From an uncultured Dokdonia sp. (GTDB lineage: Bacteria; Bacteroidota; Bacteroidia; Flavobacteriales; Flavobacteriaceae): 41,800 nt of DNA. The position numbers and the translations under genes were made by a program. The notes beneath the pieces were generated by a model that was not told where the DNA came from, did no database searches, and saw only the letters and a program-made list of their open reading frames with translations. The stretch is from positions 1 through 41,800 of the forward strand of contig CAJXSW010000012.1 in NCBI GenBank assembly GCA_913060645.1, in the 5' to 3' direction. Positions 1,359 through 40,375 of this stretch are shown here, one piece after another; the stretch's first letter is position 1; every line of letters begins with the position of its first letter.

Positions 1359-1376
1359 ACGCTTTCGCGAAAGCGT
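1359..1376. repeat. Palindromic repeat copy 1
   Basis: A perfect 18-bp palindrome (ACGCTTTCGCGAAAGCGT) in the divergent lpxR-like/DinB intergenic region, 33 bp before the DinB start. Confidence 0.95.
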
Positions 1377-1408
1377 AATAAATAATATCTTGTCATAAAA
1401 CTACATAG

Positions 1409-1882
1409 ATGACTACTTCACAATTACTAGGCGTTCACCTACAGCAACTCATTACAGGGCCTAATCTGACGGGATCACATCTATCGCAACATCTAGATGA
1501 TGTTTCTGTAAATGAAGCCATCACGAGTCTCTATGGACTCAATAGTATAGCGCAGCTGGTATTTCATATTCACTACTACATAAATGCTGTGGGAGACGTA
1601 CTAGAAGGCAAACCACTTCTTGCTAAGGATTCTTTAAGTTTTAATGTTCCCTTGATTAATACGGAAGCAGCATGGCAATTACAAAAAGAACAACTCTATG
1701 CGGCGACACATCGCTGTGCACAACTAGTAAAAGATTTTCCTCAAGAGAAATTAAAAGAAGAATTTGTGTTGAAAAAATATGGCAGTTATGAGCATAACTT
1801 AGTAGGCCTACTAGAGCACTCACATTATCATTTTGGCCAGATGGTAATTATAAAGAAAATATTGCGAGCCCAAGTAAAGTAA
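1409..1882 (+). CDS. DinB-superfamily (DUF1572-like) protein
   Basis: This 157-residue protein has the length and helical character of the DinB/YfiT four-helix bundle. Histidines are placed where the family binds a metal: His53/His55 (Phe-His-Ile-His-Tyr-Tyr) and His137/139/141 near the C-terminus (Glu-His-Ser-His-Tyr-His-Phe-Gly-Gln-Met). There is no signal peptide, so it is cytoplasmic. Many family members are metal-dependent thiol-S-transferases or damage-inducible proteins of unknown substrate, so the exact function cannot be assigned. It stands alone between a divergent gene and a bidirectional terminator. Confidence 0.75.
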   Translation: MTTSQLLGVHLQQLITGPNLTGSHLSQHLDDVSVNEAITSLYGLNSIAQLVFHIHYYINAVGDVLEGKPLLAKDSLSFNVPLINTEAAWQLQKEQLYAATHRCAQLVKDFPQEKLKEEFVLKKYGSYEHNLVGLLEHSHYHFGQMVIIKKILRAQVK

Positions 1883-1902
1883 TCTACCGCTACACTTTAA
1901 GC

Positions 1903-1937
1903 AAAAAAAATCTCGATATTGCTATCGAGATTTTTTT
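1903..1937. terminator. Bidirectional intrinsic terminator, DinB gene / accC
   Basis: An 8-bp stem TCTCGATA/TATCGAGA with a 4-nt loop, preceded by eight A and followed by seven T. It works in both directions and separates two convergent genes. Confidence 0.9.
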
Positions 1938-1940
1938 AAT

Positions 1941-3293
1941 CTATTCTTGTTCTGCTGGCTTCATTACAAAGTCTTCCATAAACTTCGTTGTATAATTACC
2001 AGCTATATAATCCGGGTGATCCATTAACTGTCTGTGAAAAGGAATTGTTGTTTTAATTCCTTCTATCACAAACTCATCAAGAGCACGCTTCATTTTATTA
2101 ATTGCCTCTTCTCTAGTTTGCGCAGTAGTAATCAACTTTGCAATCATAGAGTCATAATTAGGAGGAATCATATAGCCACTATAAACGTGAGTATCTATAC
2201 GCACTCCGTGACCTCCTGGTGCATGCAAATTAGTAATGCGCCCTGGTGATGGTCTAAAACCGTTATAAGGATCTTCTGCGTTTATACGACACTCGATAGA
2301 GTGTAACTGTGGATAATAATTTTTTCCTGATACTGGTACTCCCGCAGCAACAAGTATTTGCTCACGTATTAAATCGTAATCTACTACTTGCTCTGTAATA
2401 GGATGCTCTACTTGGATACGAGTGTTCATCTCCATGAAGTAGAAGTTGCGGTGCTTATCTACAAGGAACTCTACCGTACCTGCTCCTTCATACTTAATAT
2501 ATTCGGCAGCTTTTACGGCAGCTTCTCCCATACGCTCACGTAGGTCATCTGTCATAAATGGTGACGGAGTTTCCTCAGTAAGTTTCTGATGACGTCTTTG
2601 TACAGAACAATCTCTTTCAGAAAGGTGACACGCTTTACCGTTGCTATCTCCTACAATCTGGATTTCAATATGGCGTGGCTCTTCAATAAGCTTTTCCATA
2701 TACATACCGTCATTACCAAATGCTGCGGCACTTTCTTGACGAGCACCTTCCCAAGCCTTAAGAAGATCTTCTTTCTTCCATACAGCACGCATACCTTTAC
2801 CACCACCACCGGCAGTAGCTTTAAGCATAACAGGGTAACCAGTTTCTTTTGCTAGTTTCTGGCACTCTTCAAAGTCTTTTATAATTCCGTCAGATCCAGG
2901 CACACATGGTACACCAGCTGCTTTCATTGTTTTCTTTGCAGTTGCCTTATCTCCCATTTTAGAAATCATCTCTGCAGATGCTCCTATAAATTTGATATCG
3001 TGCTCCTCACATATTTTTGAAAACTTTGCATTTTCAGATAAGAAACCATATCCCGGATGAATTGCGTCTGCATTTGTAATCTCCGCAGCAGCAATAACAT
3101 TAGACATTTTAAGATAAGACTCTGCACTAGGAGCAGGTCCTATACATACGGCCTCATCTGCAAACTTCACGTGTAAACTCTCACGATCTGCAGTAGAGTA
3201 TACCGCTACGGTTTTGATTCCCATCTCCTTACACGTGCGTATAACACGGAGTGCGATCTCACCACGATTTGCTATAAGTATCTTTTTAAACAT
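1941..3293 (-). CDS. accC: Acetyl-CoA carboxylase, biotin carboxylase subunit
   Basis: AccC carries out ATP-dependent carboxylation of the biotin carried by AccB, the first half of malonyl-CoA formation. The 450-residue length is standard. It starts [14 protein letters not shown]. The N-terminal carboxylase domain is followed by an ATP-grasp with the glycine-rich loop Gly-Gly-Gly-Gly-Lys-Gly (162-167), the catalytic/metal stretch [10 protein letters not shown] (288-297), and the C-terminal carboxylase domain. It is the last gene of a minus-strand fabH-accB-accC run. It sits 106 bp after accB, a gap that holds a palindrome copy. No carboxyltransferase (accA/accD) gene is in the window. Confidence 0.97.
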
Positions 3294-3338
3294 AGTGTTT
3301 ATTTTTTATTGTGGTACGTAAAGATGAGTAGTAAGGTT

Positions 3339-3356
3339 ACGCTTTCGCGAAAGCAT
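3339..3356. repeat. Palindromic repeat copy 2
   Basis: ACGCTTTCGCGAAAGCAT: core intact, one outer base changed. It lies inside the accB-accC intergenic gap, so it would be transcribed if the two genes share an mRNA. Confidence 0.93.
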
Positions 3357-3399
3357 ACTACCACAATACCTCCTCAATGATTAAAATACCCGTAGGGGA

Positions 3400-3888
3400 T
3401 TATGACGGATCTACCAAGAATAATGGTTGATCAAACTCTACAGGAGAAGAATCATGTACAAGAATCTTTACGATTGTTCCAGATACTTCACTTTCGATCT
3501 CGTTAAAAAGCTTCATCGCTTCAATAACACAAAGTACATCTCCTTCTGAGATTTGTTTTCCTACTTCAACAAACATAGGCTTGTCTGGTGCAGGTTTTCT
3601 ATAAAAAGTTCCAATAATAGGAGACTTTATAGTGATATATTTTGAATTTTCATCCTCTGCTGGAGCAGCTGGTGCTACAGGAGCCGCTGCTTCTGGAGCA
3701 GGTGCTGCTGCAACTGGCGCTTGAGGAGCCATTTGCATTGCAGGCATTTGCTGTAAGAAAGTAGTAGGTGCCTTATCATCTTCGCCAGTCTTGATAGTGA
3801 TTTTTACGTCATCCATTTCAAGTTTTACTTCGCTCGCGCCAGACTTTGCAACAAATCTGATCAGGTTTTGAATTTCTTTTAAATCCAT
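3400..3888 (-). CDS. accB: Biotin carboxyl carrier protein of acetyl-CoA carboxylase
   Basis: The 162-residue protein has the usual BCCP layout. There is a short helical N-terminal region (1-35) and an Ala/Pro-rich linker (about 50-80). A biotinyl/lipoyl domain follows, with the biotin-attachment motif Glu-Ala-Met-Lys-Leu and the target Lys126. Expected partners are AccC, encoded just downstream, and AccA/AccD encoded elsewhere. It lies 27 bp after fabH, consistent with co-transcription. Confidence 0.97.
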   Translation of the reverse strand: MDLKEIQNLIRFVAKSGASEVKLEMDDVKITIKTGEDDKAPTTFLQQMPAMQMAPQAPVAAAPAPEAAAPVAPAAPAEDENSKYITIKSPIIGTFYRKPAPDKPMFVEVGKQISEGDVLCVIEAMKLFNEIESEVSGTIVKILVHDSSPVEFDQPLFLVDPS

Positions 3889-3915
3889 AAGTGTTTGAAT
3901 TTAGCTTGTTTAGTT

Positions 3916-5932: not shown

Positions 5933-7015
5933 TTATCTTTTTGCTGGCGGTCTGCCTGATCGCTCTCTACCAGCACGTCTAGGAGAAACTTTAAGTACAT
6001 CCTTTGTAATCTCCTGATATTCTTTTCTTTTATTATAAATCTTTACCGCAGAAAATACAGCCTCCCTAAAAGAGCCTTCATCAGCAGCGCCTTTTCCAGC
6101 AATCTCATAAGCTGTGCCGTGATCTGGAGAAGTGCGAACCTTATCTAATCCCGCAGTATAATTTACCCCTTTACCAAAAGACAATGTCTTAAAAGGAATC
6201 AAGCCTTGGTCGTGATAAGCAGCTAGAATTGCATCAAAATTTTTATAATTCCCTGACCCAAAAAAGCTATCTGCAGCATAAGGCCCATAAACTAACTGAC
6301 CATTTGCACGCATTTTTTCAAGCGTAGGTATCAACACCTTATCATCATCATCTCCTATAACTCCATTATCTCCAACATGAGGATTAATACCCAGCAAAGC
6401 AATTTTAGGCCTATCTACGCCAAAATCTTGCTTCAAGGCATTATATAATGTATTTACTTTCTTGACAATCACCTCTGGTGTAATCTCACTAGCCACATCT
6501 TTTACAGGAACATGATCTGTTAGTAAACCTACTTTAAGCGTATCTGTAATCATAAGCATCATCGCATCACCCTCTAGCTCTTGTGCTAGATAATCTGTAT
6601 GACCCGGGAATGCAAAATCTTCTTTCTGGATATTAGCCTTATTTATAGGAGCGGTTACAAGTACATCAATATCTCCATTTTTAAGCGCCTTAGTAGCTTC
6701 CACAAAAGACTTTAAAGCATAATCGCCTGCTGTTTCAGTCGCCTCTCCCCATTTAATCTCTACAGGCTCCTTCCATAAATTATAGACGTTTATTTTGTTA
6801 TCTAACGCTTTCGCGAAAGCGTCTATCCCATGAAACTCCGCTTGTAAACTCAAAGACTTCTTAATATAAGAAAGTGTCTTTGCCGAAGCAAAAATTATAG
6901 GTGTACAAAAATCAAACATCATCACTTCTGAAAATGTCTTTATCACAACCTCTGCCCCTATGCCATTTAAATCTCCAATAGAAATCCCTACACGTACTTT
7001 TTGATCTTTATTCAT
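5933..7015 (-). CDS. pdxA: 4-hydroxythreonine-4-phosphate dehydrogenase
   Basis: PdxA oxidises 4-phosphohydroxy-L-threonine in the DXP-dependent vitamin B6 pathway. The 360-residue protein shows the N-terminal Gly-Ile-Ser-Ile-Gly-Asp-Leu-Asn-Gly-Ile-Gly, the metal-ligand motifs Gly-His-Thr-Asp and Ala-Ala-Tyr-His-Asp-Gln-Gly, and a C-terminal Thr-Ser-Pro-Asp-His-Gly-Thr-Ala. A basic, Pro/Arg-rich tail (Ser-Pro-Arg-Arg-Ala-Gly-Arg-Glu-Arg) extends past the usual end and may be lineage-specific. A palindrome copy lies inside the gene at 6805-6822 and is read as Ala-Phe-Ala-Lys-Ala. The gene is divergent from the riboflavin synthase gene. Confidence 0.96.
   Translation of the reverse strand: MNKDQKVRVGISIGDLNGIGAEVVIKTFSEVMMFDFCTPIIFASAKTLSYIKKSLSLQAEFHGIDAFAKALDNKINVYNLWKEPVEIKWGEATETAGDYALKSFVEATKALKNGDIDVLVTAPINKANIQKEDFAFPGHTDYLAQELEGDAMMLMITDTLKVGLLTDHVPVKDVASEITPEVIVKKVNTLYNALKQDFGVDRPKIALLGINPHVGDNGVIGDDDDKVLIPTLEKMRANGQLVYGPYAADSFFGSGNYKNFDAILAAYHDQGLIPFKTLSFGKGVNYTAGLDKVRTSPDHGTAYEIAGKGAADEGSFREAVFSAVKIYNKRKEYQEITKDVLKVSPRRAGRERSGRPPAKR
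6805..6822. repeat. Palindromic repeat copy 3, inside pdxA
   Basis: A perfect 18-bp palindrome translated in pdxA as Asp-Ala-Phe-Ala-Lys-Ala-Leu. It falls in a loop-like, poorly conserved part of the N-terminal half. Confidence 0.95.
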
Positions 7016-8265: not shown

Positions 8266-8673
8266 TTACAAATTATCAATTTCTTGACATAATTCTACTA
8301 GAACACCTCCAGCAGTCTTAGGGTGCACAAAGGCAACCAGCTTATTATCAGCCCCTTTCTTTGGTTTTTCATTTAATAAAATAAAACCTTCTTTTTTTAA
8401 TCGCTCCATTTCTTCTACTATATTATCTACTGCAAAGGCTATGTGATGTATTCCTTCTCCTTTCTTTTCTAAAAATTTAGCAATAGGCCCATCTTCTGTT
8501 GTTGCCTCTAGAAGCTCTATTTTATTAGGCCCAGATTGAAAAAAGGATGTACGCACTCCTTCTGAGGCTACTTCTTCTATTTTATAATGAGCTACACCCA
8601 ATAACTTCTCGTATAAATCATTTCCCGCCTGGAGATCCTTAACTGCGATTCCTATATGTTCTATTTTTTTCAT
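8266..8673 (-). CDS. mce: Methylmalonyl-CoA epimerase
   Basis: The enzyme interconverts (S)- and (R)-methylmalonyl-CoA in propionyl-CoA metabolism, feeding methylmalonyl-CoA mutase. The 135-residue protein is a single vicinal-oxygen-chelate domain pair. His6 (Ile-Glu-His-Ile-Gly-Ile-Ala-Val), the Gly-Ile-His-His-Ile-Ala-Phe motif and a C-terminal Val-Leu-Val-Glu-Leu supply the expected metal ligands. The Pro-Asn-Lys-Ile-Glu-Leu-Leu-Glu segment is also typical. No mutase gene lies in the window. A -7 box at 8795-8802 would give a leader that contains a palindrome copy. Confidence 0.93.
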   Translation of the reverse strand: MKKIEHIGIAVKDLQAGNDLYEKLLGVAHYKIEEVASEGVRTSFFQSGPNKIELLEATTEDGPIAKFLEKKGEGIHHIAFAVDNIVEEMERLKKEGFILLNEKPKKGADNKLVAFVHPKTAGGVLVELCQEIDNL

Positions 8674-8730: not shown

Positions 8731-8747
8731 AGCTTTCGCGAAAGCGT
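8731..8747. repeat. Palindromic repeat copy 4
   Basis: The 14-bp core is intact; the left outer C is replaced by A (AGCTTTCGCGAAAGCGT). It lies in the divergent mce/rbfA gap, within the predicted mce leader. Confidence 0.93.
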
Positions 8748-8819: not shown

Positions 8820-8827
8820 TATTTTTG
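8820..8827 (+). promoter_or_regulatory. -7 box for rbfA
   Basis: TATTTTTG matches TAnnTTTG and ends 6 bp before the rbfA ATG at 8834, implying an almost leaderless mRNA. It excludes the TTG at 8825 as a start. Confidence 0.65.
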
Positions 8828-8833
8828 CAGTCT

Positions 8834-9226
8834 ATGGAATCAAACAGACAGAAAAAAGTAGCAGGAGTTCTTCAGAAGGATCTTGCAGAAGTTCTTCAGA
8901 ACGCACTACGTGACAGTGGTAAGGGAGGCATCATTGTGTCCGTTACTAAGGTAAAAGTTCCTACAGATCTTTCTATTGCCAAAGTATACCTAAGCGTTTT
9001 CCCAAACGACAAAGCAGCAGAAATACTTAAAGAGGTAAATCAAGTAAAACCTATTATAAGACATAATATCTCTCAACGCACACGCCACCAGCTGCGCCGC
9101 ATGCCTGAGTTACAATTTTTTATAGACGATACACTAGAGTATCTAGACGGTATTGAACGCTCTCTTAAGCGCGAGGAAAACCCACTTGAAGACCCTAGTC
9201 TACTAGCGCGACGTAAAAAGATATAA
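8834..9226 (+). CDS. rbfA: Ribosome-binding factor A
   Basis: RbfA is a KH-fold factor that binds the immature 30S subunit and helps 16S rRNA 5'-end maturation. From the ATG at 8834 the product is 130 residues, starting Met-Glu-Ser-Asn-Arg-Gln-Lys-Lys-Val-Ala, the usual family N-terminus. An in-frame TTG at 8825 would add three residues but lies inside the promoter box. The segment Arg-His-Asn-Ile-Ser-Gln-Arg-Thr-Arg-His-Gln-Leu-Arg-Arg-Met-Pro-Glu-Leu is the conserved RbfA signature. The permease gene starts on the base after its stop codon, so the two are co-transcribed. Confidence 0.95.
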   Translation: MESNRQKKVAGVLQKDLAEVLQNALRDSGKGGIIVSVTKVKVPTDLSIAKVYLSVFPNDKAAEILKEVNQVKPIIRHNISQRTRHQLRRMPELQFFIDDTLEYLDGIERSLKREENPLEDPSLLARRKKI

Positions 9227-11489: not shown

Positions 11490-11509
11490 TACGCTTTCGC
11501 GAAAGCGTA
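11490..11509. repeat. Palindromic repeat copy 5
   Basis: The longest perfect version here: a 20-bp palindrome that extends the 16-bp core with TA on both sides. It begins 7 bp downstream of a minus-strand -7 box, so it would form the first hairpin of the dus mRNA. Confidence 0.95.
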
Positions 11510-16030: not shown

Positions 16031-16066
16031 AAAGGGTGCAGTTTTAAAACTGCACCCTTTTTTTTA
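16031..16066. terminator. Bidirectional terminator, lepA / cutC
   Basis: A perfect 30-bp palindrome, AAAGGGTGCAGTTTT and its complement (16031-16060), is followed by a T-run that reaches the cutC stop codon. It serves two convergent genes. Confidence 0.93.
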
Positions 16067-16780
16067 TAGCATATTTAAGAGTGCCTTCATTTTAGAAATA
16101 TCAGAGGTTTGAAGTAAGTTATTTTCATGACCTGCTAGCGAATGCATTTTTATAGGATGATTATATCCAAACGCATTACTACTCAAACTACCATGCACTT
16201 CGCTAAAACCTGCGTTCTTAAATTTCATAACATTATCAACAGAGATTCCTCCGCCAGGTAAAATACTTATACGATTTCTAGCCGCAGCTAGCAATTGCAC
16301 CAAGGTTTCATAACCTTCATTCACATTAACATTCATTCCAGAAGTTAAAACCCTCTGAGCGCCCATATCTATGAGTAGCTCTAAGGCAGCAAGAACATCA
16401 GGCGTCCAATCGAAAGCGCGATGAAAGGTAAAAGGTAGTTCTCCACATTCAGCGATTAATTGTTTAGTCCTCTCTGCATCAATAGTAAAATCCGTATTTA
16501 ATACTCCAGAAACTATCCCTTGTGCACCTTGCGCTTTCGCGAAAGCGATATCTCGCAACATCACATCAAAATCGGCTTCCGAGTACATAAAATCTCCAGA
16601 TCTTGGCCTTATGAGTACAAATACAGGAATCTCAAGCTCTTGCATCACTTTCTCTATCAAACCATGACTAGGAGTAATCCCTCCAAGTGACAGCTCTTGA
16701 CAAAGTTCAATACGATGTGCTCCTGCATCTTGAGCAGCCAGCGCACTTTCAAACGAGTTTGCACAGATTTCTAATTTCAT
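16064..16780 (-). CDS. cutC: CutC family protein (copper homeostasis protein)
   Basis: The 238-residue TIM-barrel protein begins Met-Lys-Leu-Glu-Ile-Cys-Ala-Asn-Ser. It carries the family motifs Arg-Ile-Glu-Leu-Cys, Gly-Gly-Ile-Thr-Pro-Ser, Ile-Arg-Pro-Arg-Ser-Gly-Asp-Phe, Thr-Phe-His-Arg-Ala-Phe-Asp and Leu-Pro-Gly-Gly-Gly-Ile. CutC was first linked to copper tolerance in E. coli, but its biochemical role is unsettled. It is divergent from the GH92 gene; in Bacteroidota CutC-like genes often sit beside glycan-catabolic genes. A palindrome copy at 16532-16547 encodes Ala-Phe-Ala-Lys-Ala. Confidence 0.93.
   Translation of the reverse strand: MKLEICANSFESALAAQDAGAHRIELCQELSLGGITPSHGLIEKVMQELEIPVFVLIRPRSGDFMYSEADFDVMLRDIAFAKAQGAQGIVSGVLNTDFTIDAERTKQLIAECGELPFTFHRAFDWTPDVLAALELLIDMGAQRVLTSGMNVNVNEGYETLVQLLAAARNRISILPGGGISVDNVMKFKNAGFSEVHGSLSSNAFGYNHPIKMHSLAGHENNLLQTSDISKMKALLNML
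16532..16547. repeat. Palindromic repeat copy 6, inside cutC
   Basis: A perfect 16-bp palindrome read in cutC as Ile-Ala-Phe-Ala-Lys-Ala-Gln. It lies only 834 bp from copy 7, the closest pair in the window. Confidence 0.95.
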
Positions 16781-16880: not shown

Positions 16881-19823
16881 ATGCGCTACCTACTCTCTCT
16901 TTTTCTTCTCCTACTTACAGTCACTAGTTGCGATCATATTACGGAGGTTACTCCTGCTCAAAAAGATCAGGACCTCATAAGCTATGTGAATCCTTTTATA
17001 GGCACCGGTGGTCACGGTCATACCTACCCGGGGGCGACCATGCCTTTTGGTATGATGCAGCTTAGTCCAGACACACGATTAGATGGCTGGGACGGTTGTT
17101 CTGGGTATCATTATGATGATGATTTCATCTATGGTTTTAGTCACACACATCTAAGCGGGACGGGAGTTTCAGACTATGGAGATATCCTCTTGATGCCTTC
17201 TACTTCCATAATGTTTAATAATGGTGCAGATGGAAAACCTGGTTATCGGGATCATTTTACGCATGATAATGAAGTAGCACAACCAGGATATTATAGCGTA
17301 CATCTAGACAACTCAAATATAGAGGTAGCTCTTACTGTTGCTGCTCGTAGCGGTGTGCATAAGTACGCTTTCGCGAAAGCGGACTCTTTAAAAAACTTTG
17401 TGATTTTAGATCTTGAGCACCGTGATGAAGTACTGAGCACCAAAATAGATACACTCTCTAGCACAGAACTCTCGGGACATAGACACTCCAAGGCTTGGGC
17501 TAGCAACCAAAAGCTGTTTTATTACATTAAAACATCACACAGTTTCAAATACCTAAAGCAACCAAAAGGGACGAAGAACGGCGCGACATCACACAAAGCT
17601 GCATTGCAGTTTGACAATCCCAAGAATGAAGAAATCATCATAAAAATCGGAATATCTGCCGTAGATGAAGCTGGGGCGCGAAAGAACCTAGAAACCGAAA
17701 TAGGAAACAAAACCTTTGACCGAGTAAAGCAAGAAGCACAAAGTACTTGGGAAAGTCAGCTAGAGAAAATTGTTGTAGAAAGTGAAAACTCAGATTACAA
17801 AACGAATTTTTATACTTCGCTATATCATACCATGCTGGCCCCTAATCTCTATCAAGATGTAGATGGTCGCTACCGAGGGATGGATCTAGAAATTCACCAA
17901 ACAGATGCTTTTGATTATTATACGGTATTCTCACTGTGGGATACGTATCGCGCAGCGCATCCATTATATACGATTATAGAAGAAGAACGTACTAATGATT
18001 TTATTAACACCTTTCTTGCCAAATATGAGGAAGGTGGCATTATGCCTATTTGGGATTTAGCTGGCAACTATACTGGCTGTATGATAGGCTATCATGCAGT
18101 ACCCGTAATTGCAGACGCTTATATGAAAGGAATACGTGATTACGATACAAATAAAGCTTTTGAAGCGATGCTTCATAGTGCCTCACAAGACAAACTTGGC
18201 CTTGCATCTTACAAGAAATACGGTTTTATACCTGCAAATGACGAAGCAGAGTCTGTATCAAAGACACTAGAATATGCTTATGACGACTGGACTATTGCTC
18301 AAATGGCGCAAGAAATGGGTAACGAAGAAATCTACCAAGAATTTACAAAGCGCGCGCAGTCTTACAAAAATGTATATGATCCTTCTTCTGGTTTTATGCG
18401 AGGTCGCATGCGCAACACATGGTTCTCTCCTTTTGATCCCTTTGAAGTAAATTTTAATTATACCGAAGCAAATGCCTGGCAATATAGTCTCTATGCGCCT
18501 CAAGACATAAGTGGACTTATTCATCTCACCGGAGGAAACAAGGCGTTTGAAAGAAAACTAGACACACTATTTACGGCCGAGACTGCAACTTCTGGTCGTC
18601 ACCAGCAAGATATCACAGGATTGATAGGACAATATGCACATGGCAATGAACCTAGCCACCATATGGCATATTTATACAATTACATCCAGAAGCCTTGGAA
18701 AACTCAAAAGCGAGTACACGAGATCCTTACCACACTATACACAAATTCTCCAGATGGAATTTCTGGCAATGAAGATTGTGGGCAGATGAGCGCTTGGTAT
18801 GTACTAAGCTCCTTAGGCTTTTATCCTGTAACCCCAGGAAGTAATGAATATGCTATTGGTACACCATTATTTGATAAGGCTACCATACATTTAGAAAATG
18901 GCAATAGTTTTACCATTGTTGCACAAAATCTCTCTGAAGAAAATATACACATAGAAAGTGCGTATATGAATGATAAGGCGTACCCATATTCATACTTGAA
19001 ACACGAAGATATAATGGATGGCGGCGAACTCATATTTAATATGGCAGCTACTCATTCTCGATGGGCAAAGCACCCTGCTCATAGTCCCAAAACAAGTATT
19101 GTAGATAATGAATTTACTGCTGCCCCCTTCATAGCAAAAGGAGAAGCCAACTTTAAAAAAGTAACCGAAATTACACTCGCTACCACAGATAAAAATGTGG
19201 ATATTTTCTACGCATTAGAAGAAGATGGAAACAACTTCAAAAAGTACAGATTACCTTTTGAGGTTGAAAATCACAATACGCTTCGCACATATGCAAAGGG
19301 TCGTCATGGACAGAGTGCTACCATCGAAACGCCATTATTTAAACTAAATGAAAACTATAGCCTTCAACTTGATGCAACATATGCAAATGCTTATAATGCC
19401 GGCGGAGATAATGCTTTGATAGATGGCGTGAGAGGAGTAAAAGAATTCCGCTCAGGTACATGGCAGGGCTATGATGCTCAAGATGTAGTAGCTACGCTAG
19501 ACTTAGGCAAAACACAAACCATCACTAGTATTGAAACTGCATTTTTACAAGATCAGCGCAGTTGGATTTTCTACCCTACAGAAGTAACATTGCTAACTTC
19601 TATGGATGGTGAAAATTTTGAAATCTATCACCAAGAGCAAATTGATGCTGCTTCTCGCGATGAGGACATTGCTATTAAAAGTATTAAAGGGAAGCAACGA
19701 GGCACACAAGCTCAATACATAAAACTTGTAGCGAAAACACTAGGAGATCTTCCAGAGTGGCATTTAGGTTTTCCTTATCAAGGAAAAAGCTGGGTATTTG
19801 TAGACGAGATTGTAGTGCAGTAA
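16881..19823 (+). CDS. GH92 family alpha-mannosidase, lipoprotein
   Basis: GH92 enzymes are Ca2+-dependent exo-alpha-mannosidases that trim mannose from N-glycans and related glycans. The 980-residue protein has a lipoprotein signal (lipobox Val-Thr-Ser-Cys, Cys17), so it is membrane-anchored, probably periplasmic or surface. The N-terminal GH92 domain opens with Tyr-Val-Asn-Pro-Phe-Ile-Gly-Thr-Gly-Gly-His-Gly-His. The catalytic (alpha/alpha)6 domain has Gly-Asn-Glu-Pro-Ser-His-His (588-594, putative acid Glu590) and Gly-Asn-Glu-Asp-Cys-Gly-Gln-Met-Ser-Ala-Trp (629-639). The last 140 or so residues look like an F5/8 type C carbohydrate-binding domain (Asp-Ala-Leu-Ile-Asp-Gly-Val). It is followed by two codirectional genes, the second a glycosylasparaginase, so the run suits N-glycoprotein breakdown. 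Confidence 0.93.
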   Translation: MRYLLSLFLLLLTVTSCDHITEVTPAQKDQDLISYVNPFIGTGGHGHTYPGATMPFGMMQLSPDTRLDGWDGCSGYHYDDDFIYGFSHTHLSGTGVSDYGDILLMPSTSIMFNNGADGKPGYRDHFTHDNEVAQPGYYSVHLDNSNIEVALTVAARSGVHKYAFAKADSLKNFVILDLEHRDEVLSTKIDTLSSTELSGHRHSKAWASNQKLFYYIKTSHSFKYLKQPKGTKNGATSHKAALQFDNPKNEEIIIKIGISAVDEAGARKNLETEIGNKTFDRVKQEAQSTWESQLEKIVVESENSDYKTNFYTSLYHTMLAPNLYQDVDGRYRGMDLEIHQTDAFDYYTVFSLWDTYRAAHPLYTIIEEERTNDFINTFLAKYEEGGIMPIWDLAGNYTGCMIGYHAVPVIADAYMKGIRDYDTNKAFEAMLHSASQDKLGLASYKKYGFIPANDEAESVSKTLEYAYDDWTIAQMAQEMGNEEIYQEFTKRAQSYKNVYDPSSGFMRGRMRNTWFSPFDPFEVNFNYTEANAWQYSLYAPQDISGLIHLTGGNKAFERKLDTLFTAETATSGRHQQDITGLIGQYAHGNEPSHHMAYLYNYIQKPWKTQKRVHEILTTLYTNSPDGISGNEDCGQMSAWYVLSSLGFYPVTPGSNEYAIGTPLFDKATIHLENGNSFTIVAQNLSEENIHIESAYMNDKAYPYSYLKHEDIMDGGELIFNMAATHSRWAKHPAHSPKTSIVDNEFTAAPFIAKGEANFKKVTEITLATTDKNVDIFYALEEDGNNFKKYRLPFEVENHNTLRTYAKGRHGQSATIETPLFKLNENYSLQLDATYANAYNAGGDNALIDGVRGVKEFRSGTWQGYDAQDVVATLDLGKTQTITSIETAFLQDQRSWIFYPTEVTLLTSMDGENFEIYHQEQIDAASRDEDIAIKSIKGKQRGTQAQYIKLVAKTLGDLPEWHLGFPYQGKSWVFVDEIVVQ
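17366..17381. repeat. Palindromic repeat copy 7, inside the GH92 gene
   Basis: A perfect 16-bp palindrome read as Tyr-Ala-Phe-Ala-Lys-Ala-Asp in the N-terminal GH92 domain. Confidence 0.95.
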
Positions 19824-20658: not shown

Positions 20659-21687
20659 ATGAACAGAAGAAAATTTATAAATAAATCTGCAGTTGCTGGA
20701 GCTGGGATTGCTACAGGCGCAAGTTTGATGGCATGCAATGACCTAAACACAAGCACTGGTGATGTGGATAATACCGCTTTCGCGAAAGCGCAAAAAGAAA
20801 ACATCAAAAAACCATCTCCCATTGCCATTTGTACATGGGGCTTTTCTGGAGCTACAGCAAAAGCTGGCGAACTCCTAGATGGCGGCAGCTCTGCACTCGA
20901 TGCAATTATAGCAGGTGTCGCTGTAGAAGAAGAAAATATAGAAAATACCACCGTAGGAATAGGAGCCACTCCAGACAGAGAGGGCAATGTAACGCTAGAT
21001 GCCTGCGTGATGAATCCAGAAGGAGATTGCGGAGCTGTGCTTGCTGTTGAAAATATAGTAAATGTGGCTGCATTAGCTCGTAAGGTTATGGAGGAAACGC
21101 CACACGTCATCTTAGCAGGAAAAGGCGCCGAAGAATTTGCTTATGAGCAGGGATTTACTAAACAAAAACTTCTCACAGAAGAACGCAAAGAAGCTTGGAA
21201 AGAGTGGTTGAAAACAAGTGATTACAAACCGGAAATAAACATAGAGAATCACGATACCATCGGGATGCTTGCTATAGATAACAATGGTGATATTGCAGGT
21301 GCTTGTACTACATCTGGATTAGGCTATAAAATGAAAGGGCGCGTAGGAGATTCTCCCATTATAGGATCTGGACTTTTTATAGATAATGAAGTAGGTGGTG
21401 CTGTAGCCACAGGAATGGGAGAAGAAGTACTCAAGACAGTTGGCAGTTTTTTAATTGTAGAGTTAATGCGTTCTGGAATGTCACCACAAGCTGCTTGTGA
21501 GGAAGCAATCCATAGAATTACAAAGAAGGGAGCTCGTTATAAGGATTTCCAAATCGCCTACATCGCTATGAATAAATCTGGTGAGACTGGAAGTCATTGT
21601 ATTCATAAGGGATTTACAATGATGAAGTATCAAAATAAAAAAAATGAAAATATTTCATCTTCTTTTTACGACACAAAAAATAGCTAG
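20659..21687 (+). CDS. N4-(beta-N-acetylglucosaminyl)-L-asparaginase (glycosylasparaginase), Tat-exported
   Basis: This Ntn hydrolase cleaves the GlcNAc-Asn bond of N-glycoproteins after self-cleavage into two chains. The autocatalytic site His-Asp-Thr-Ile-Gly-Met is intact, with nucleophile Thr200. Downstream are Ala-Cys-Thr-Thr-Ser-Gly and Gly-Arg-Val-Gly-Asp-Ser-Pro-Ile-Ile-Gly-Ser-Gly, which bind substrate. The N-terminus (Met-Asn-Arg-Arg-Lys-Phe-Ile) is a twin-arginine signal with a possible lipobox (Leu-Met-Ala-Cys), so the folded enzyme would be exported and possibly lipid-anchored. The 342-residue length is normal. A palindrome copy at 20775-20790 encodes Ala-Phe-Ala-Lys-Ala at the junction of signal and mature enzyme. 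Third gene of the GH92 run. Confidence 0.93.
   Translation: MNRRKFINKSAVAGAGIATGASLMACNDLNTSTGDVDNTAFAKAQKENIKKPSPIAICTWGFSGATAKAGELLDGGSSALDAIIAGVAVEEENIENTTVGIGATPDREGNVTLDACVMNPEGDCGAVLAVENIVNVAALARKVMEETPHVILAGKGAEEFAYEQGFTKQKLLTEERKEAWKEWLKTSDYKPEINIENHDTIGMLAIDNNGDIAGACTTSGLGYKMKGRVGDSPIIGSGLFIDNEVGGAVATGMGEEVLKTVGSFLIVELMRSGMSPQAACEEAIHRITKKGARYKDFQIAYIAMNKSGETGSHCIHKGFTMMKYQNKKNENISSSFYDTKNS
20775..20790. repeat. Palindromic repeat copy 8, inside the glycosylasparaginase gene
   Basis: A perfect 16-bp palindrome read as Thr-Ala-Phe-Ala-Lys-Ala-Gln, in the linker after the export signal. Confidence 0.95.
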
Positions 21688-22460: not shown

Positions 22461-22478
22461 ACGCTTTCGCGAAAGCGT
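22461..22478. repeat. Palindromic repeat copy 9
   Basis: A perfect 18-bp palindrome 18 bp before the polA GTG. It lies in the artificial upstream extension of polA, and in a frame (Leu-Ser-Arg-Lys-Arg) unlike every true intragenic copy. Confidence 0.95.
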
Positions 22479-22496
22479 AATTCAAAACAACTTCAC

Positions 22497-26087: not shown

Positions 26088-26103
26088 GCTTTCGCGAAAG
26101 CGT
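26088..26103. repeat. Palindromic repeat copy 10 (start of duplicated unit, copy A)
   Basis: GCTTTCGCGAAAGCGT; the left outer bases are AA rather than AC. It begins a unit of about 65 bp that recurs at 28978. Confidence 0.93.
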
Positions 26104-26110
26104 AAATAGA

Positions 26111-26152
26111 AAAACCCCAAATTCTTATTACTAAGAATTTGGGGTTTTTATT
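26111..26152. terminator. Terminator-like hairpin between divergent genes (copy A)
   Basis: A perfect 17-bp stem AAAACCCCAAATTCTTA with its complement and a TTAC loop, followed by a T-rich tail. No gene on either strand ends here: the lipoprotein gene starts at 25934 leftward and the LRR gene at 26283 rightward. It is therefore misplaced for a terminator, unless copied in or used as a leader attenuator. The rest of 25935-26282 shows only a weak -7-like TACTTTAG at 26257-26264. Confidence 0.8.
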
Positions 26153-28975: not shown

Positions 28976-28993
28976 ACGCTTTCGCGAAAGCAT
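28976..28993. repeat. Palindromic repeat copy 11 (start of duplicated unit, copy B)
   Basis: ACGCTTTCGCGAAAGCAT, two bases after the LRR stop codon. It is followed by the second terminator copy. Confidence 0.93.
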
Positions 28994-29000
28994 AAATAGA

Positions 29001-29038
29001 AAAACCCCAAATTCTTATCAGTAAGTATTTGGGGTTTT
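29001..29038. terminator. Bidirectional terminator after the LRR gene (copy B)
   Basis: Same hairpin as at 26111 with three changed bases; one stem pair is lost (TTCTTA against TAAGTA). Here it lies between convergent genes, the place expected for a terminator. Confidence 0.88.
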
Positions 29039-32794: not shown

Positions 32795-32812
32795 ACGCTT
32801 TCGCGAAAGCGT
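32795..32812. repeat. Palindromic repeat copy 12
   Basis: A perfect 18-bp palindrome in the 291-bp divergent gap between the DUF5916 gene and rplM, 101 bp from the DUF5916 start. Confidence 0.95.
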
Positions 32813-32985: not shown

Positions 32986-33441
32986 GTGGACGCATTAAGT
33001 TACAAAACAGTATCTGCAAACAAAGCTACCGTAAACAAGGAGTGGGTTTTGATAGATGCAGACGGACAAACGCTAGGTCGTATGTCTTCTATCGTAGCTA
33101 AGTTTTTACGCGGTAAGTACAAGCCAAGTTTTACACCTCACGTAGATTGTGGAGATAACGTTGTTATCATAAACGCTGCAAAGGTGCAATTATCAGGAAA
33201 CAAGTGGACGGAAAAATCATATATCCGTCACACAGGTTATCCAGGTGGGCAACGTAGTCTTACAGCGAGAGAGCTTTACGATAAAGATCCTACACGTGTA
33301 GTAGAAGCTGCCGTGAAAGGGATGTTACCAAAAAACAAATTGGGGAGTGCTATCTTCCGTAACCTTAAAGTGTATGCAGGTGCAGAACACGATCAGGAAG
33401 CGCAGAAGCCTCGTGCCATTAACCTAAACGAAATTAAGTAA
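32986..33441 (+). CDS. rplM: 50S ribosomal protein L13
   Basis: The 151-residue L13 starts at a GTG (Met-Asp-Ala-Leu-Ser-Tyr-Lys), the usual N-terminus in this group. It has Trp-Val-Leu-Ile-Asp-Ala-Asp-Gly-Gln-Thr-Leu-Gly-Arg, Gly-Lys-Tyr-Lys-Pro and His-Thr-Gly-Tyr-Pro-Gly-Gly. It is followed without a gap by rpsI, the classic L13-S9 pair. Confidence 0.97.
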   Translation: MDALSYKTVSANKATVNKEWVLIDADGQTLGRMSSIVAKFLRGKYKPSFTPHVDCGDNVVIINAAKVQLSGNKWTEKSYIRHTGYPGGQRSLTARELYDKDPTRVVEAAVKGMLPKNKLGSAIFRNLKVYAGAEHDQEAQKPRAINLNEIK

Positions 33442-33837: not shown

Positions 33838-33871
33838 ATACTCGCAATGCCTTTTGGCTTTTTACGAGTAT
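33838..33871 (+). other. Hairpin after rpsI
   Basis: ATACTCG (33838-33844) pairs with CGAGTAT (33865-33871) and encloses a smaller GCC/GGC stem with a TTTT loop. There is no T-tail after the outer stem, so it may be part of a leader or a processing/attenuation element. Confidence 0.45.
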
Positions 33872-33961
33872 GAATTGAAACTGATTACTATCAAAATTTA
33901 AAAATTAATTGAAATGTTGTCGTTGCTTATTATGTTTTTGCGCAAGCAAAATCTTAGTAAG

Positions 33962-33997
33962 GTTAGTTTAGCATCTAAACTTCGTGAACTCGAAGTT
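33962..33997 (+). promoter_or_regulatory. Structured rpsB leader candidate
   Basis: AACTTCG (33978-33984) pairs with CGAAGTT (33991-33997). GTTTA (33966-33970) can pair with TAAAC (33976-33980), which overlaps the first stem, so the two are alternatives. It ends 40 bp before the rpsB start, where autoregulatory ribosomal-protein leaders are commonly found. Confidence 0.4.
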
Positions 33998-34037
33998 GCT
34001 AATTTTAATGTCCAACGGAACGTAAACTATTACAAAA

Positions 34038-36000: not shown

Positions 36001-36513
36001 CTACGAAATATACTGATCCATTATCGATACAGACACCTCTTTACTTCTACTTATGGCGATACCATTAAGTTCATTAGTGAGTACAAACATTGCTTTGAGT
36101 TCAAGAGCATAGCCATCTTTTTCATCTCGCATGGCTTCAAGAACCTTATTACTTACAAGTAAATTACCTGGAGCTAAAGAGCCTGGGTCTTTTTGTAATT
36201 GGAATTTAAAACGGGCGGTAACATTACCATTACTTGCCTTATAACTCTTACCAAGCTTGTTATAAATCATATCATCCTCGTTAGAGTAAGCGTCTTTTAC
36301 TTGCTCAACGTCTAGTTGACAATGCAACTCATTAATGAGCGGCATCATAATATCCTCCTCTCCATCTACGTCGTAAACAAACCCTTGTACGTAATAGACA
36401 ACATCGAGTTGTTTATCTAAATTACTGAAAACAATATCTGTTTTAATTTCTATATCAATACCGCTTGATGCGTTACCAATAACTTTTAATGATGTAGCTT
36501 GTAGTTTTGCCAT
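36001..36513 (-). CDS. Hypothetical cytoplasmic protein between tsf and pyrH
   Basis: The 170-residue acidic protein has no signal peptide or membrane helix. Predicted strands alternate with charged loops: Val-Val-Tyr-Tyr-Val-Gln-Gly-Phe-Val-Tyr-Asp-Val-Asp-Gly-Glu-Glu-Asp in the first half, and Val-Thr-Ala-Arg-Phe-Lys-Phe-Gln-Leu and Leu-Glu-Leu-Lys-Ala-Met-Phe-Val-Leu-Thr later. It looks like one beta-sandwich-like domain. I do not recognise a family. It runs against the strand of the translation genes on both sides, and its own coding style matches the neighbours, so it is probably a real gene. Confidence 0.75.
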   Translation of the reverse strand: MAKLQATSLKVIGNASSGIDIEIKTDIVFSNLDKQLDVVYYVQGFVYDVDGEEDIMMPLINELHCQLDVEQVKDAYSNEDDMIYNKLGKSYKASNGNVTARFKFQLQKDPGSLAPGNLLVSNKVLEAMRDEKDGYALELKAMFVLTNELNGIAISRSKEVSVSIMDQYIS

Positions 36514-36710: not shown

Positions 36711-36726
36711 CGCTTTCGCGAAAGCG
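36711..36726. repeat. Palindromic repeat copy 13
   Basis: A perfect 16-bp palindrome in the divergent gap before pyrH, 45 bp upstream of the pyrH -7 box, a position suited to an activator or roadblock site. Confidence 0.95.
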
Positions 36727-36779: not shown

Positions 36780-36795
36780 CATAACTACACAGACT

Positions 36796-37500
36796 ATGAA
36801 ATATAAAAGAATATTACTTAAACTTTCTGGTGAGGCCTTAATGGGAGATCGCCAGTACGGAATAGATCCTAACCGTCTTGCAGAATATGCAGAAGACATT
36901 AAAGCAGTAACAGAAAAAGGTGTTGAAGTTGCTATTGTTATAGGTGGCGGAAATATCTTTAGAGGTGTAGCGGGAGCTAGTAAAGGAATGGATCGCGTAC
37001 AAAGTGATCACATGGGAATGCTTGCCACTGTAATAAACGGTCTTGCACTTCAAGACGCACTAGAACAAGCAAACGTAAAAACAAGATTGCAAACAGCTAT
37101 TAAAATTAATGAAGTGGCTGAGCCTTTTATACGCCGTAAAGCAATGGCACATCTCAATAAAGGACGTGTGGTTATCTTTGGTGGAGGTACAGGTAATCCT
37201 TACTTTACTACAGACTCTGCTGCGGTATTGAGAGCAATCGAGATAGAGGCAGATGTTATTTTAAAAGGAACGAGAGTAGATGGTATTTACAACTCGGATC
37301 CTGAGAAAAATACAGATGCTATTAAGTATGATCATATCTCTTTTGACGATGTGCTACGCAAAGGATTAAAGGTGATGGACACTACGGCTTTTACATTAAG
37401 TCAAGAAAATGAGTTACCTATTATTGTTTTTGATATGAATACTCGTGGCAACTTGATGAAAGTGGTCTCTGGTGACGCTATAGGTACTACCGTAAACTAA
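36796..37500 (+). CDS. pyrH: UMP kinase
   Basis: PyrH phosphorylates UMP to UDP. The 234-residue amino-acid-kinase-fold protein has Lys-Leu-Ser-Gly-Glu-Ala-Leu-Met-Gly, Ile-Gly-Gly-Gly-Asn-Ile-Phe-Arg-Gly, Asp-His-Met-Gly-Met-Leu-Ala-Thr-Val and [11 protein letters not shown], all typical of the bacterial enzyme. It is followed 53 bp later by frr, a conserved pair. Confidence 0.98.
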
Positions 37501-38111: not shown

Positions 38112-38134
38112 TAGTACAGACGTTAAACAATTAT

Positions 38135-38162
38135 AAAAAAGCGACCACATGGTCGCTTTTTT
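38135..38162 (+). terminator. Terminator after frr
   Basis: A perfect 12-bp stem AAAAAAGCGACC/GGTCGCTTTTTT with an ACAT loop, ending 27 bp before the next gene. Confidence 0.93.
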
Positions 38163-38188
38163 GATACATTTACCTTTCAACCTACTCT

Positions 38189-40309
38189 ATGCGTCAGTTT
38201 ATAATTGTCTATCTCTTATGCTTAAGTTTTACTGCGATAGCTCAGAATGAGCCAGACGTGCAGCGCATTATCAATCAAGCAATTGAAAATAAAGTTAAGA
38301 ACGACCCGAGAGAGGTACTCGCTTCTTATACATATGACGTTTATGAGAAAACGGTTATTACAGACAGCCTTAATGGGAGTACGCATAACTTCTTTTCTGA
38401 GAAAGTAAGCCAACTTCAATTTACAGAGGATCACCAGTTTTCGGAGAATATTATTGGATATCAGCTTGCTGGTTTTAAGAATCCGCGATATGAGGTGTTT
38501 GCTGTAAATGTGCAATCAAGATCATTTTATGATGATGACTTTGTAATTTTCAATAATCGATATGCGGGAATTCTCTCAACAAGAGGAATGCGCAATTATA
38601 ACTACAGTATAACTTCTAGTGGTGTAAATGGAGATTACCAAGTAAGTTTTAGCCCTAAAAAACCTAAGAAAATCCCAGGGCTTACTGGGACAATGACCTT
38701 AGATAAAAACACACTCGCTATAAAAGGCGTGCAAGTGCGTATTACAGATAAGCTTAACATTATTCTTAATCAAGAGTACACCTACATAGAAGACGCAAAC
38801 ATTTATTTACCGCAGCAGCGAGAATTATTTCTAGATAAAGGAAGTGAAGATCGCAAGCTTTCTTTCTTTAAAGGGCGTATCTCTATAGGTACTATAGAAA
38901 ACGAAGTGCTGGAAGATATGGTTACTCGTAAGTTTCTTGTAGCTACTACAAGAATGAGTAATTACAATGTGAACAAGGAGGTTACCATTCCAGATTCTAA
39001 GTATGCGATTACTTTTAAGGAAGGTGCAAGCGAGCAACCAGAATCATTCTGGCAAAACTATCGCACGACACCATTATCTAGTAAAGATGAACGCAGTTTC
39101 TCAGAACTAGAGCGTATTGTAAATGCCGAAAACATAGAACGTAGACTAGGGACTACTAATAATTTTAGTATTGGTTATTTTAGTTTTGATGCCTTCGATT
39201 TTGACCTTACATACCCTGTAAAATTTAATAATTATGAGGGTTTGAGACTTGGCCTTGGCGGAGTGACTAATGAGTCTTTCTCTAAGCGTTTCCGTATAGA
39301 AGGCTATGCTGCTTATGGATTTAAAGACCAAGATATCAAGTATGGTATAGGTGCTGGTTATCTTCTCGATCCAGACAAGGGAGCATGGATTTCTGGAACG
39401 TACAACAGTGACCTAGAAGAAGTAGGTAATTATGCATACTTAACAGATCGCCGTGTGTATTCCCTCTTTGAACCACGCCTAGTAAACATCACACAGTTTT
39501 ACAAACATCGTACTACTCGTTTAAATCTTGAGTACAGACTTACACCACAATTACTTTCTGAGTTACAAATTGCTCATAGACGTCTAGATCAGACAACGCC
39601 TTACCGCTATAATAACGATGGGAACATCATACGTAATTATGACATTTCTGAAGCAACAGCCTCTTTCCGCTGGAGTCCATCTAATAAATATTTAAAAACA
39701 GAAAATGATATTGTCCCTGTTTATGAGGGCTACCCTATAATTTCTGGTCAGGTATCTCAAGCTATTGATGGTCTAGGAGGAGACCTTGCATTTACAAAAC
39801 TTGCCGCCAAAGTTTTTTACAGAGTAGACAGACTCAACAAATCTGCTACGGAGTTTCTGGTAGAAGGAAATGTTGGTTTTGGAGATTTACCTATCACCCT
39901 CCTATTCCACGCATTTCCTAATGCACCTACTAAGGAAACTATACTTCAGCGTTTTTCGGTGGCTGGAGTTAATAGTTTTGAGACTATGTTTTTTGGTGAA
40001 TTCTTTTCAGACAAGCTGCTTACTGCTCAGGTAAAACATAGACTGGCGCCATTTAATATCTCTAAGAGTTTTAAACCAGAATTGGTTTTTATAAGCCGTT
40101 TTGCCATAGGAGATATAAGTAACCCAGAAGATCATCTCGATATCGGAGAATTTGGCTCGCTTAGTAAAGGATATACAGAAACTGGTTTTGAACTTAACAA
40201 GCTGCTTTTTGGCTTTGGGACGAGTCTCACCTACCGTTATGGGGCTTACCATTTACCTAACTGGGGAGATAACATTGCATTTAAGTTTACATTCAATCTC
40301 AAACTGTAG
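38189..40309 (+). CDS. DUF5686 outer-membrane protein
   Basis: The 706-residue protein has a signal peptide (about 1-18, ending Ala-Ile-Ala-Gln), then Ile-Ile-Asn-Gln-Ala-Ile-Glu-Asn-Lys, typical of the region where DUF5686 begins. A periplasmic part follows (about 20-310). The C-terminal half (about 320-706) is a barrel-like array with Arg-Leu-Gly-Thr-Thr-Asn and Tyr-Gly-Ile-Gly-Ala-Gly-Tyr and a last strand of alternating aromatics (Ala-Phe-Lys-Phe-Thr-Phe-Asn-Leu-Lys-Leu). Many relatives carry an N-terminal CarboxypepD_reg domain that is absent here, which accounts for the shorter length. The function is unknown; the setting next to an RND-type gene suggests envelope transport. Confidence 0.87.
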   Translation: MRQFIIVYLLCLSFTAIAQNEPDVQRIINQAIENKVKNDPREVLASYTYDVYEKTVITDSLNGSTHNFFSEKVSQLQFTEDHQFSENIIGYQLAGFKNPRYEVFAVNVQSRSFYDDDFVIFNNRYAGILSTRGMRNYNYSITSSGVNGDYQVSFSPKKPKKIPGLTGTMTLDKNTLAIKGVQVRITDKLNIILNQEYTYIEDANIYLPQQRELFLDKGSEDRKLSFFKGRISIGTIENEVLEDMVTRKFLVATTRMSNYNVNKEVTIPDSKYAITFKEGASEQPESFWQNYRTTPLSSKDERSFSELERIVNAENIERRLGTTNNFSIGYFSFDAFDFDLTYPVKFNNYEGLRLGLGGVTNESFSKRFRIEGYAAYGFKDQDIKYGIGAGYLLDPDKGAWISGTYNSDLEEVGNYAYLTDRRVYSLFEPRLVNITQFYKHRTTRLNLEYRLTPQLLSELQIAHRRLDQTTPYRYNNDGNIIRNYDISEATASFRWSPSNKYLKTENDIVPVYEGYPIISGQVSQAIDGLGGDLAFTKLAAKVFYRVDRLNKSATEFLVEGNVGFGDLPITLLFHAFPNAPTKETILQRFSVAGVNSFETMFFGEFFSDKLLTAQVKHRLAPFNISKSFKPELVFISRFAIGDISNPEDHLDIGEFGSLSKGYTETGFELNKLLFGFGTSLTYRYGAYHLPNWGDNIAFKFTFNLKL

Positions 40310-40359
40310 TAAACCCATCGTAACCTCATTCAATCTACTGAACTTAGGTTAATTTATTA

Positions 40360-40375
40360 CGCTTTCGCGAAAGCG
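40360..40375. repeat. Palindromic repeat copy 14
   Basis: A perfect 16-bp palindrome between the DUF5686 gene and the RND gene, 58 bp upstream of the RND -7 box. Confidence 0.95.

Follow-up and report, generated by a model that had tools for sequence, protein, structure and literature searches.

What reads a palindrome that recurs letter for letter throughout a bacterial genome? The question is raised by a stretch of 41,800 nucleotides (hereafter, the window) from an uncultured Dokdonia sp. (Flavobacteriaceae; contig CAJXSW010000012.1), in which the 14-letter perfect palindrome GCTTTCGCGAAAGC occurs 14 times. An initial annotation, made from the sequence alone, listed these cores, and all of the listed starts are exact. 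Its estimate that chance would give far less than one copy agrees with dinucleotide-shuffled versions of the window (mean 0.00 copies) and with Markov expectations from ~0.0001 copies (orders 1–3) up to 0.09 (order 5); versions with one or two mismatches are absent from the window. Ten of the 14 cores are intergenic as judged from the open reading frames (ORFs), as had been annotated, and the rest are coding (Table 1). The claim that the core is “usually” extended was too generous, since the 18-mer ACGC...GCGT is complete at 5 of the 14 sites and the 16-mer CGC...GCG at 10.

The element is a genome-wide recognition site, i.e., the exact two-fold-symmetric GCTTTCGCGAAAGC, preferably with an outer C and G, set in an element of ~50–60 bp. 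Such an exact, conserved, and evenly spread palindrome points to a protein that reads GCTTTCGCGAAAGC, perhaps for the recognition of own DNA. The even spacing, the rule obeyed by the flanks, the one-armed forms, the copies in phages, and the patchy distribution described below are additions to the initial annotation.

Copy number and distribution

The genome of origin (G000, a Dokdonia draft of 3,112,495 bases in 219 contigs) holds 705 exact copies of GCTTTCGCGAAAGC. Allowing up to one mismatch gives 798, hence 93 copies with exactly one; these are scattered over 42 neighbouring sequences, which places the exact core ~318-fold above each neighbour. The same pattern read backwards, used as a control, has no copy in G000. 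The 16-mer is complete in 503 of the 705 sites. All 17 other genomes of the genus that were searched carry 369–905 copies each, and in the single-contig genome G016 each of twenty 20-kb stretches, taken at even distances, contains 4–8 sites (124 in total). The two outcomes named beforehand as fatal to the annotated proposal were counts at the level expected from base composition and confinement of the copies to this region. Neither was seen: the counts (705 against 93 one-mismatch copies, and those of the 17 relatives) are far above expectation, and copies occur in 20 of the 20 samples around G016. The proposal of a highly iterated site that some cellular factor reads is borne out: all 18 same-genus genomes searched have copies by the hundred, and the distribution round the complete G016 chromosome is uniform.

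Among 397 genomes of the family, 80 contain any match: 74 have 1–19 copies and six have hundreds, namely G000, G012, three genomes of genus g11 (578, 664, and 609), and G230 (408), the only genome found for genus g210. A search for the 16-mer in 392 genomes of the phylum returned 12 with a match, i.e., the genome of origin (503) and 11 with 1–2 copies. The distribution is, hence, narrow and patchy, with hundreds of copies in Dokdonia and two further Flavobacteriaceae genera and at most 19 in the others sampled. In 40 kb from each of ten non-carrier genomes, no 12- or 14-bp palindrome was found more than twice, and the commonest 12-mer of any kind had 6 occurrences.

The stray copies of non-carriers are often clustered. 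Four genomes (G118, G127, G254, and G141) each hold a pair of copies 933 bp apart, in related DNA. In G118, the DNA of this cluster is, by its translations, a copper/heavy-metal efflux island with relatives in several non-carrier Flavobacteriaceae (2–5 copies per stretch); in some genomes, a 616-amino-acid (aa) ParB_N protein shares the contig with such a cluster. The clusters are read as DNA that formerly resided in a carrier, the copies being a “passport” of the passage. A reader travelling along with the clusters was considered and rejected: the efflux-island genes merely include the site.

Spacing, conservation, and flanks

The spacing of the sites was compared with random placement at the same coding and intergenic rates, genes being called with a simple purpose-made caller. 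The coefficient of variation was 0.41 vs. 1.04 under this null in G000 (57 intervals), 0.64 vs. 1.11 in G016 (55 intervals), and 0.53 vs. 1.06 for the pooled set (120 intervals), values reached in 0 of 2000 simulations in each case. In G281, of genus g11, it was 0.41 vs. 1.02 (0 of 1000), the shortest interval being 1334 bp. The first 100 places of G230 gave 0.68 vs. 0.99 for uniform placement (0 of 20,000) and no interval below 1300 bp where 16 were expected; its smaller samples are weaker on evenness (42 of 1000 and 199 of 2000 simulations). Close pairs do occur in Dokdonia, e.g., the single interval of 834 bp in the window and 7 of 55 intervals below 1300 bp in G016 (shortest, 606), and in the second G016 sample 4.8% of the intervals are below 700 bp vs. 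24% expected. Overall, the sites lie much more evenly than random placement would have them, and close pairs are few.

Such evenness could result from a dimeric DNA-binding protein of the cytosol with a role in organising, anchoring, or spacing the chromosome, provided that selection keeps one site per 3–7 kb and disfavours close pairs. The two-fold-symmetric core, as a dimer would need, the uniform coverage of the sampled chromosome, and the lack of any pair closer than 1.3 kb in G281 or in the first 100 places of G230 argue for this nucleoid “ruler”, whereas the 7 of 55 shorter intervals of G016 argue against it. On balance, with the evidence that follows, we regard it as less likely than not, though close behind the uptake mark favoured below.

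The sites are held in place. Of the window sites that could be aligned, 13 of 13 are retained in G006, 13 of 13 in G009, 11 of 12 in G008, 8 of 8 in G004, and 9 of 10 in G016. In the other sampled stretches, 64 of 69 aligned sites were retained between close pairs (78 looked up) and 38 of 44 between far pairs (134 looked up, many lying beyond the other stretch); from G000 to G008, the count was 10 of 11 (14 looked up). The same sites recur across several genome pairs in these counts. Core identity is 0.992 (close) and 0.972 (far), vs. ~0.90 and ~0.75 outside; a core kept at 97% where local identity is ~76–78% is also in line with the nucleoid ruler. Orthologous intact and decayed sites differ mostly by substitution and not by insertion of a unit; the initial annotation, too, had set aside a miniature inverted-repeat transposable element (MITE) or a repetitive extragenic palindromic (REP) unit. 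Of the 18 same-genus genomes, for instance, 13 have a perfect copy of the site before rpsB and five an altered one, in one case through a larger insertion (17 genomes aligned, G003 placed by position); alignments of five non-carriers and of one g11 genome show no trace of it. Separately, two blocks before rpsB, TTAGTTTAGCATCTAAA and GAACGTAAACTA (window ~33870–34037), are nearly or fully conserved in carriers and non-carriers and are possibly a ribosomal-protein leader.

In a coarse test, 14 of 20 places were common within Dokdonia, compared with 4 of 26 between g11 and Dokdonia, 0 of 5 between G230 and Dokdonia, and 2 of 6 between G230 and g11. Since so few places are shared between genera, the sites appear to have accumulated largely independently, and hundreds of independent exact sites are hard to obtain by selection on single sites without drive, which weakens the nucleoid ruler. 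A search for transferred genes among the sampled stretches gave nothing convincing. A trkA/trkH-like block of G230 (contig 1, ~180.5–185.3 kb) is 66–81% identical to Dokdonia (median 54%); transfer between carriers, or merely conserved genes, are possible explanations of this block.

With 87–91% of the sampled DNA coding according to the purpose-made caller, the sites lying in coding DNA number 29 of 61 in G000, 22 of 56 and 57 of 124 in the two samples of G016, and 5 of 9 in G012 (113 of 250 for Dokdonia), 23 of 54 in G281, and 35 of 45 in G230. Coding copies read in frame as AFAKA, xLSRK, or xFRES. Per kb of gap, the pooled Dokdonia sites are densest between convergent genes (3.2, vs. 1.2 in codirectional and 1.1 in divergent gaps), which is unlike sites of a regulator; the 13 intergenic sites of the first g11 sample are densest in divergent gaps (2.1 vs. 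1.2). G230 has fewer sites and a weak flank rule, and so its system looks younger or weaker.

The flank rule itself was derived from 306 half-sites. Counting from the centre, C stands at position 8 in 88%, A at 9 in 58%, and T at 10 and 11 in 76% and 66%; over positions 10–25, C is down from 0.19 to 0.02–0.13, while G and T are raised. The 5' flank is C-poor to ~25 bp on both strands, and by strand symmetry the opposite flank avoids G; likewise on both strands, the 5' flank is T-rich and the 3' flank A-rich. The rule is valid for 65 coding and 46 intergenic sites alike. The annotated absence of fixed flanks stands for the sequence, the rule of composition having been overlooked. In orthologues, flank sequence drifts at the background rate or slightly faster, with changes to C from T (0.026 vs. 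0.046) and from G (0.016 vs. 0.032) about halved and those from A unchanged (0.022 vs. 0.023), in genome pairs that overlap and, hence, give counts that are not independent. The rule could stem from selection or from a strand-biased mutation process.

A poorly structured, C-poor, G/T-rich flank with a 3' end is the kind of DNA onto which a recombinase might be loaded. The palindrome could then be a two-way Chi-like site, at which a break-processing or defence nuclease halts from either side while DNA devoid of sites is degraded as foreign. The flank rule would mark the strand expected to be single-stranded on each side, and the spacing of 3–7 kb is suitable. Known Chi sites, however, are short, asymmetric, and oriented. 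We consider this explanation improbable, its phage evidence (below) included. A RecA-like periodicity of 3 nt was looked for in the flanks and appears as a weak pattern only, in the intergenic copies.

No clear Watson–Crick covariation beyond column composition was found in the flanks of 162 sites (z from −1.9 to 2.5). Together with the substitutional change of orthologous copies, the A-rich and not T-rich 3' flank, the 113 coding sites among 250 in Dokdonia, and the gapless AFAKA of a phage terminase (below), this leaves hardly any room for a mobile palindrome of the REP or MITE kind or for an RNA hairpin such as a terminator, in spite of a repeated palindrome with an intergenic excess and its highest density per base in the convergent gaps of Dokdonia.

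Besides full cores, 1.26 Mb of Dokdonia sequence contains 69 occurrences of the inner TTTCGCGAAA where 1.1 are expected, and 0.32 Mb of g11 contains 5; none is present in 0.40 Mb of non-carriers. Orthologous copies of related genomes are counted separately here. All 74 extra occurrences retain one GC arm and are, hence, one-armed sites. A counterpart in a relative was sought for 45 of them and could be aligned for 31: 23 were still one-armed, 6 full, and 2 changed, with 12-mer identity of 0.989 vs. 0.916 in the flanks. They tend toward the gaps between full sites (17–110 of 1000 simulations in five of seven sets and 217 and 445 in the remaining two, with orthologous sites shared among the sets), and a second conserved class that tends to fall in gaps suits the nucleoid ruler. 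Outside full cores, Dokdonia has 184 copies of the hexamer TCGCGA (92 expected), of which 69 are one-armed sites, and g11 has 25 (21 expected). These numbers bear on a likeness to the highly iterated palindrome HIP1, named in the initial annotation, and with it on a possible site of an orphan DNA methyltransferase. The iteration and the palindrome agree with it, as does the statement in parts of PMC4390886 that cyanobacterial HIPs accompany cognate methyltransferases. An excess of only 1.2–2-fold is unlike a target of 4–8 bp, and for a methylase, a core of 14 bp plus flanks of 20 bp would be unusually long. The HIP1-like behaviour as a short palindrome is weak, and a HIP1-like methyltransferase site is considered very improbable.

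Phage copies, candidate function, and the search for a reader

Phages of presumed carriers bear the palindrome as well. In IMG/VR, the 16-mer was found in 41 stretches of 30 records; a recount with the 14-mer gave 2–7 copies in 21 of the 30 (in one case 7 within 37.4 kb) and a single copy in 9, some of the records being near-duplicates. In viral stretches below 45% G+C (48 sites), C amounts to 0.06–0.11 at positions 10–25. No flank rule was seen at higher G+C (14 sites), a set that mixes chance-like single-copy records with multi-copy phage stretches, e.g., G819 and G828. The proteins tested in two multi-copy records are terminase, portal, tape measure, and major head proteins, and some phage copies lie inside structural genes. 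In a search for strictly lytic phages, meant to tell a benefit to the phage from prophage drive, a tyrosine integrase turned up in 6 of the 21 multi-copy records, which makes at least some of these phages temperate, and some others resemble, by eye, the transposable phage Peternella_1 of Winogradskyella; benefit and drive are both possible sources of the phage copies. The related terminase of Peternella_1 is 55% identical and lacks AFAKA, with which different residues align gaplessly. Neither Peternella_1 nor the Cellulophaga phage phi39:1 has a copy at up to two mismatches. Phage genomes with a site every few kb, next to two related phages of non-carriers with none, are what the Chi-like site would predict, and phages carrying sites fit the nucleoid ruler, too.

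The candidate function that we favour, at a probability of roughly 40%, is that of a mark of “own” DNA resembling an uptake signal. A receptor that recognises the sequence would favour DNA fragments with one site or more; once imported, such fragments would by recombination repair decayed sites and add new ones through point substitution (molecular drive), and site density would settle near one per effective length of fragment, so that copies would appear to repel each other at short range. Uptake sequences fit the statistics best, and drive would explain the independent build-up of exact sites. Support comes from the sharp excess of exact cores, the even spacing, the intergenic excess of Dokdonia and g11 with in-frame peptides at coding copies, the mostly substitutional change of sites, and their largely independent accumulation in separate genera. 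That a DNA-entry reader is the cause, which protein it would be, and that molecular drive operates are what we infer and not what we observe.

Several points weigh against an uptake mark. The described uptake sequences are shorter and non-palindromic. The spacing of 3–7 kb is wider than the ~1 kb of Haemophilus influenzae, and the intergenic excess, present in Dokdonia and g11, is small in G230. The palindrome and the phage copies point rather to a dimer in the cytosol or to a site that controls a nuclease, and phage copies obeying the flank rule suggest, though do not prove, a benefit inside the cell. As to competence, it counts in favour of an uptake mark that natural transformation is reported for Riemerella, where the RS04915–RS04920 (DUF5689) pair is needed (passages of PMC8459023), and that R. 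columbina prefers its own DNA; it counts against one that no competence was seen in Flavobacterium johnsoniae under the same conditions (both from passages of PMC7965970). Dokdonia is not named among the literature matches listed for competence-related terms. Furthermore, DUF5689 has a Pfam match in 33 of the 33 genomes tested, and the receptor next to it is present in 30 of 30, carriers or not; no reader emerged among the candidates tested, i.e., ParB paralogues, DUF5689, and the neighbouring receptor.

The candidates fared as follows. In the tree of 24 recovered DUF5689 proteins (9 of the 33 genomes are not represented), 11 Dokdonia proteins group together, but those of the carriers G012 and G230 sit with non-carriers. 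The neighbouring receptor is 55–58% identical to that of Dokdonia in g11 and 62–65% in six non-carriers. Neither protein separates carriers, and so their role as a carrier-specific reader is not supported. In Dokdonia, the DUF5689 ORF (by Pfam) adjoins an ORF that is receptor-like by eye; in G016 (L262:14162-19561), the two are reminiscent of the Riemerella transformation pair, and the receptor-like ORF adjoins an endonuclease/exonuclease/phosphatase (EEP) ORF, so named by eye, another such ORF lying ~8 kb off (5960-6946). ParB_N has exactly one match in 15 of 18 carrier genomes; the extras are the 616-aa type of G011 and G015, also present in some non-carriers, and a 176-aa frame in G000. With no carrier-specific extra ParB, a ParB paralogue is not supported as the reader, the partition-site option of the initial annotation finds no support, and the nucleoid ruler lacks a carrier-specific ParB candidate. 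The uptake and nucleoid-protein options of the same annotation correspond to the two explanations given most weight here. Literature searches by phrase and by sequence, mostly at the level of listings, found no description of the motif.

The sites of the window are collected in Table 1. Those at 26088 and 28978 flank one large gene and have near-identical right flanks of ~30 bp (26102-26130 and 28992-29020).

Table 1. Cores of GCTTTCGCGAAAGC in the window, with their surroundings and their state in five relatives (G006, G009, G008, G004, and G016).
Position	Strand	Location	Form or frame	Retention in relatives
1361..1374	.	Intergenic, divergent ORFs 315-1277(-) / 1409-1882(+)	Full ACGC...GCGT	G006 and G009; G008, G004, and G016 not alignable
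3341..3354	.	Gap between minus-strand ORFs 3400-3888 (presumably accB-like) and 1941-3293 (presumably accC-like), named from their translations		5/5
6807..6820	.	Within ORF 5933-7015(-)	Reads AFAKA	5/5
8732..8745	.	Intergenic, divergent ORFs 8266-8673(-) / 8825-9226(+)		5/5
11493..11506	.	Intergenic, ORFs 10429-11421(-) / 11663-14074(-)	Full ACGC...GCGT	4/5; single substitution in G008
16533..16546	.	Within ORF 16064-16780(-)	Reads AFAKA	3/4 aligned
17367..17380	.	Within ORF 16881-19823(+)	Reads AFAKA	4/4 aligned
20776..20789	.	Within ORF 20659-21687(+)	Reads AFAKA	4/4 aligned
22463..22476	.	Inside TTG-started frame 22389-25346 (by eye over-long), whose DNA polymerase I-like ORF probably starts just 3' of the site	Full ACGC...GCGT	5/5
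26088..26101	.	Intergenic, divergent ORFs 25431-25934(-) / 26283-28973(+)		Sole alignable relative
28978..28991	.	Intergenic, convergent ORFs 26283-28973(+) / 29068-29880(-)		2/2 aligned
32797..32810	.	Intergenic, 5' of ribosomal-protein-like ORF 32986-33441	Full ACGC...GCGT	5/5
36712..36725	.	Intergenic, divergent ORFs 36001-36513(-) / 36796-37500(+)		4/4 aligned
40361..40374	.	Intergenic, 52 bp past ORF 38189-40309(+)		5/5

Comparison with known systems

The sites of ParB and Noc proteins (parS type) are palindromes of 14–16 bp with TTTC/GAAA arms; unlike them, the present palindrome has hundreds of copies distributed uniformly instead of being clustered near the origin or kept out of one region, and no carrier-specific ParB paralogue accompanies it. 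It is like Chi in being iterated, clade-specific, and present once per few kb, and unlike Chi in being a palindrome without orientation and about twice as long, so that the asymmetry typical of Chi is missing. From an intrinsic terminator it differs by the A-rich 3' side without a T run and by the many sites in coding DNA or divergent gaps. HIP1 of cyanobacteria (GCGATCGC) is likewise a highly iterated palindrome, and palindromic extensions are described for it, too (parts of PMC4390886); the exact core in Dokdonia is much longer and has a flank rule.

The uptake sequences, i.e., the uptake signal sequence (USS) of Pasteurellaceae and the DNA uptake sequence (DUS) of Neisseriaceae, share with it hundreds of exact copies, a steep fall at one mismatch, fairly even spacing, and under-representation in coding DNA. 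Passages of PMC1939737 give a drop from zero to one mismatch of 92-fold in H. influenzae and 82-fold in N. gonorrhoeae, and passages of PMC7811141 describe for H. influenzae a “relatively even distribution” as the expected outcome of drive, coding under-representation, and a spacing of ~1 kb. At the same time, the Dokdonia element differs from USS and DUS in its palindromic nature, the exact core of 14–16 bp, symmetric flanks, one-armed forms, wider spacing, and occurrence in Bacteroidota.

As an uptake signal, the element would be a palindromic example from Bacteroidota, through which self-preference in transformation could be tested in a group of marine bacteria. As a nucleoid or break-processing site, it would provide a ruler, written in the sequence, by which the chromosome is organised or self-recognition is achieved; to our knowledge, sequence sites of these kinds are little known in Bacteroidota. 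Under any of these readings, one protein is predicted to bind the 18-bp site. Somewhat less likely than not, the element may even represent a class of genome-wide iterated signal separate from those of Chi, HIPs, and the uptake sequences. It would then be a “ruler” site of palindromic form, read by a protein, in which copies exclude each other at short range (in two genera, with G281 and the first 100 places of G230 as samples, pairs below 1.3 kb are absent, and in Dokdonia they are reduced), with symmetric C-avoiding flanks and a conserved one-armed form. Such a site would have arisen in a few Flavobacteriaceae genera, accumulated hundreds of copies largely independently, and been imposed on the phages living in these hosts.

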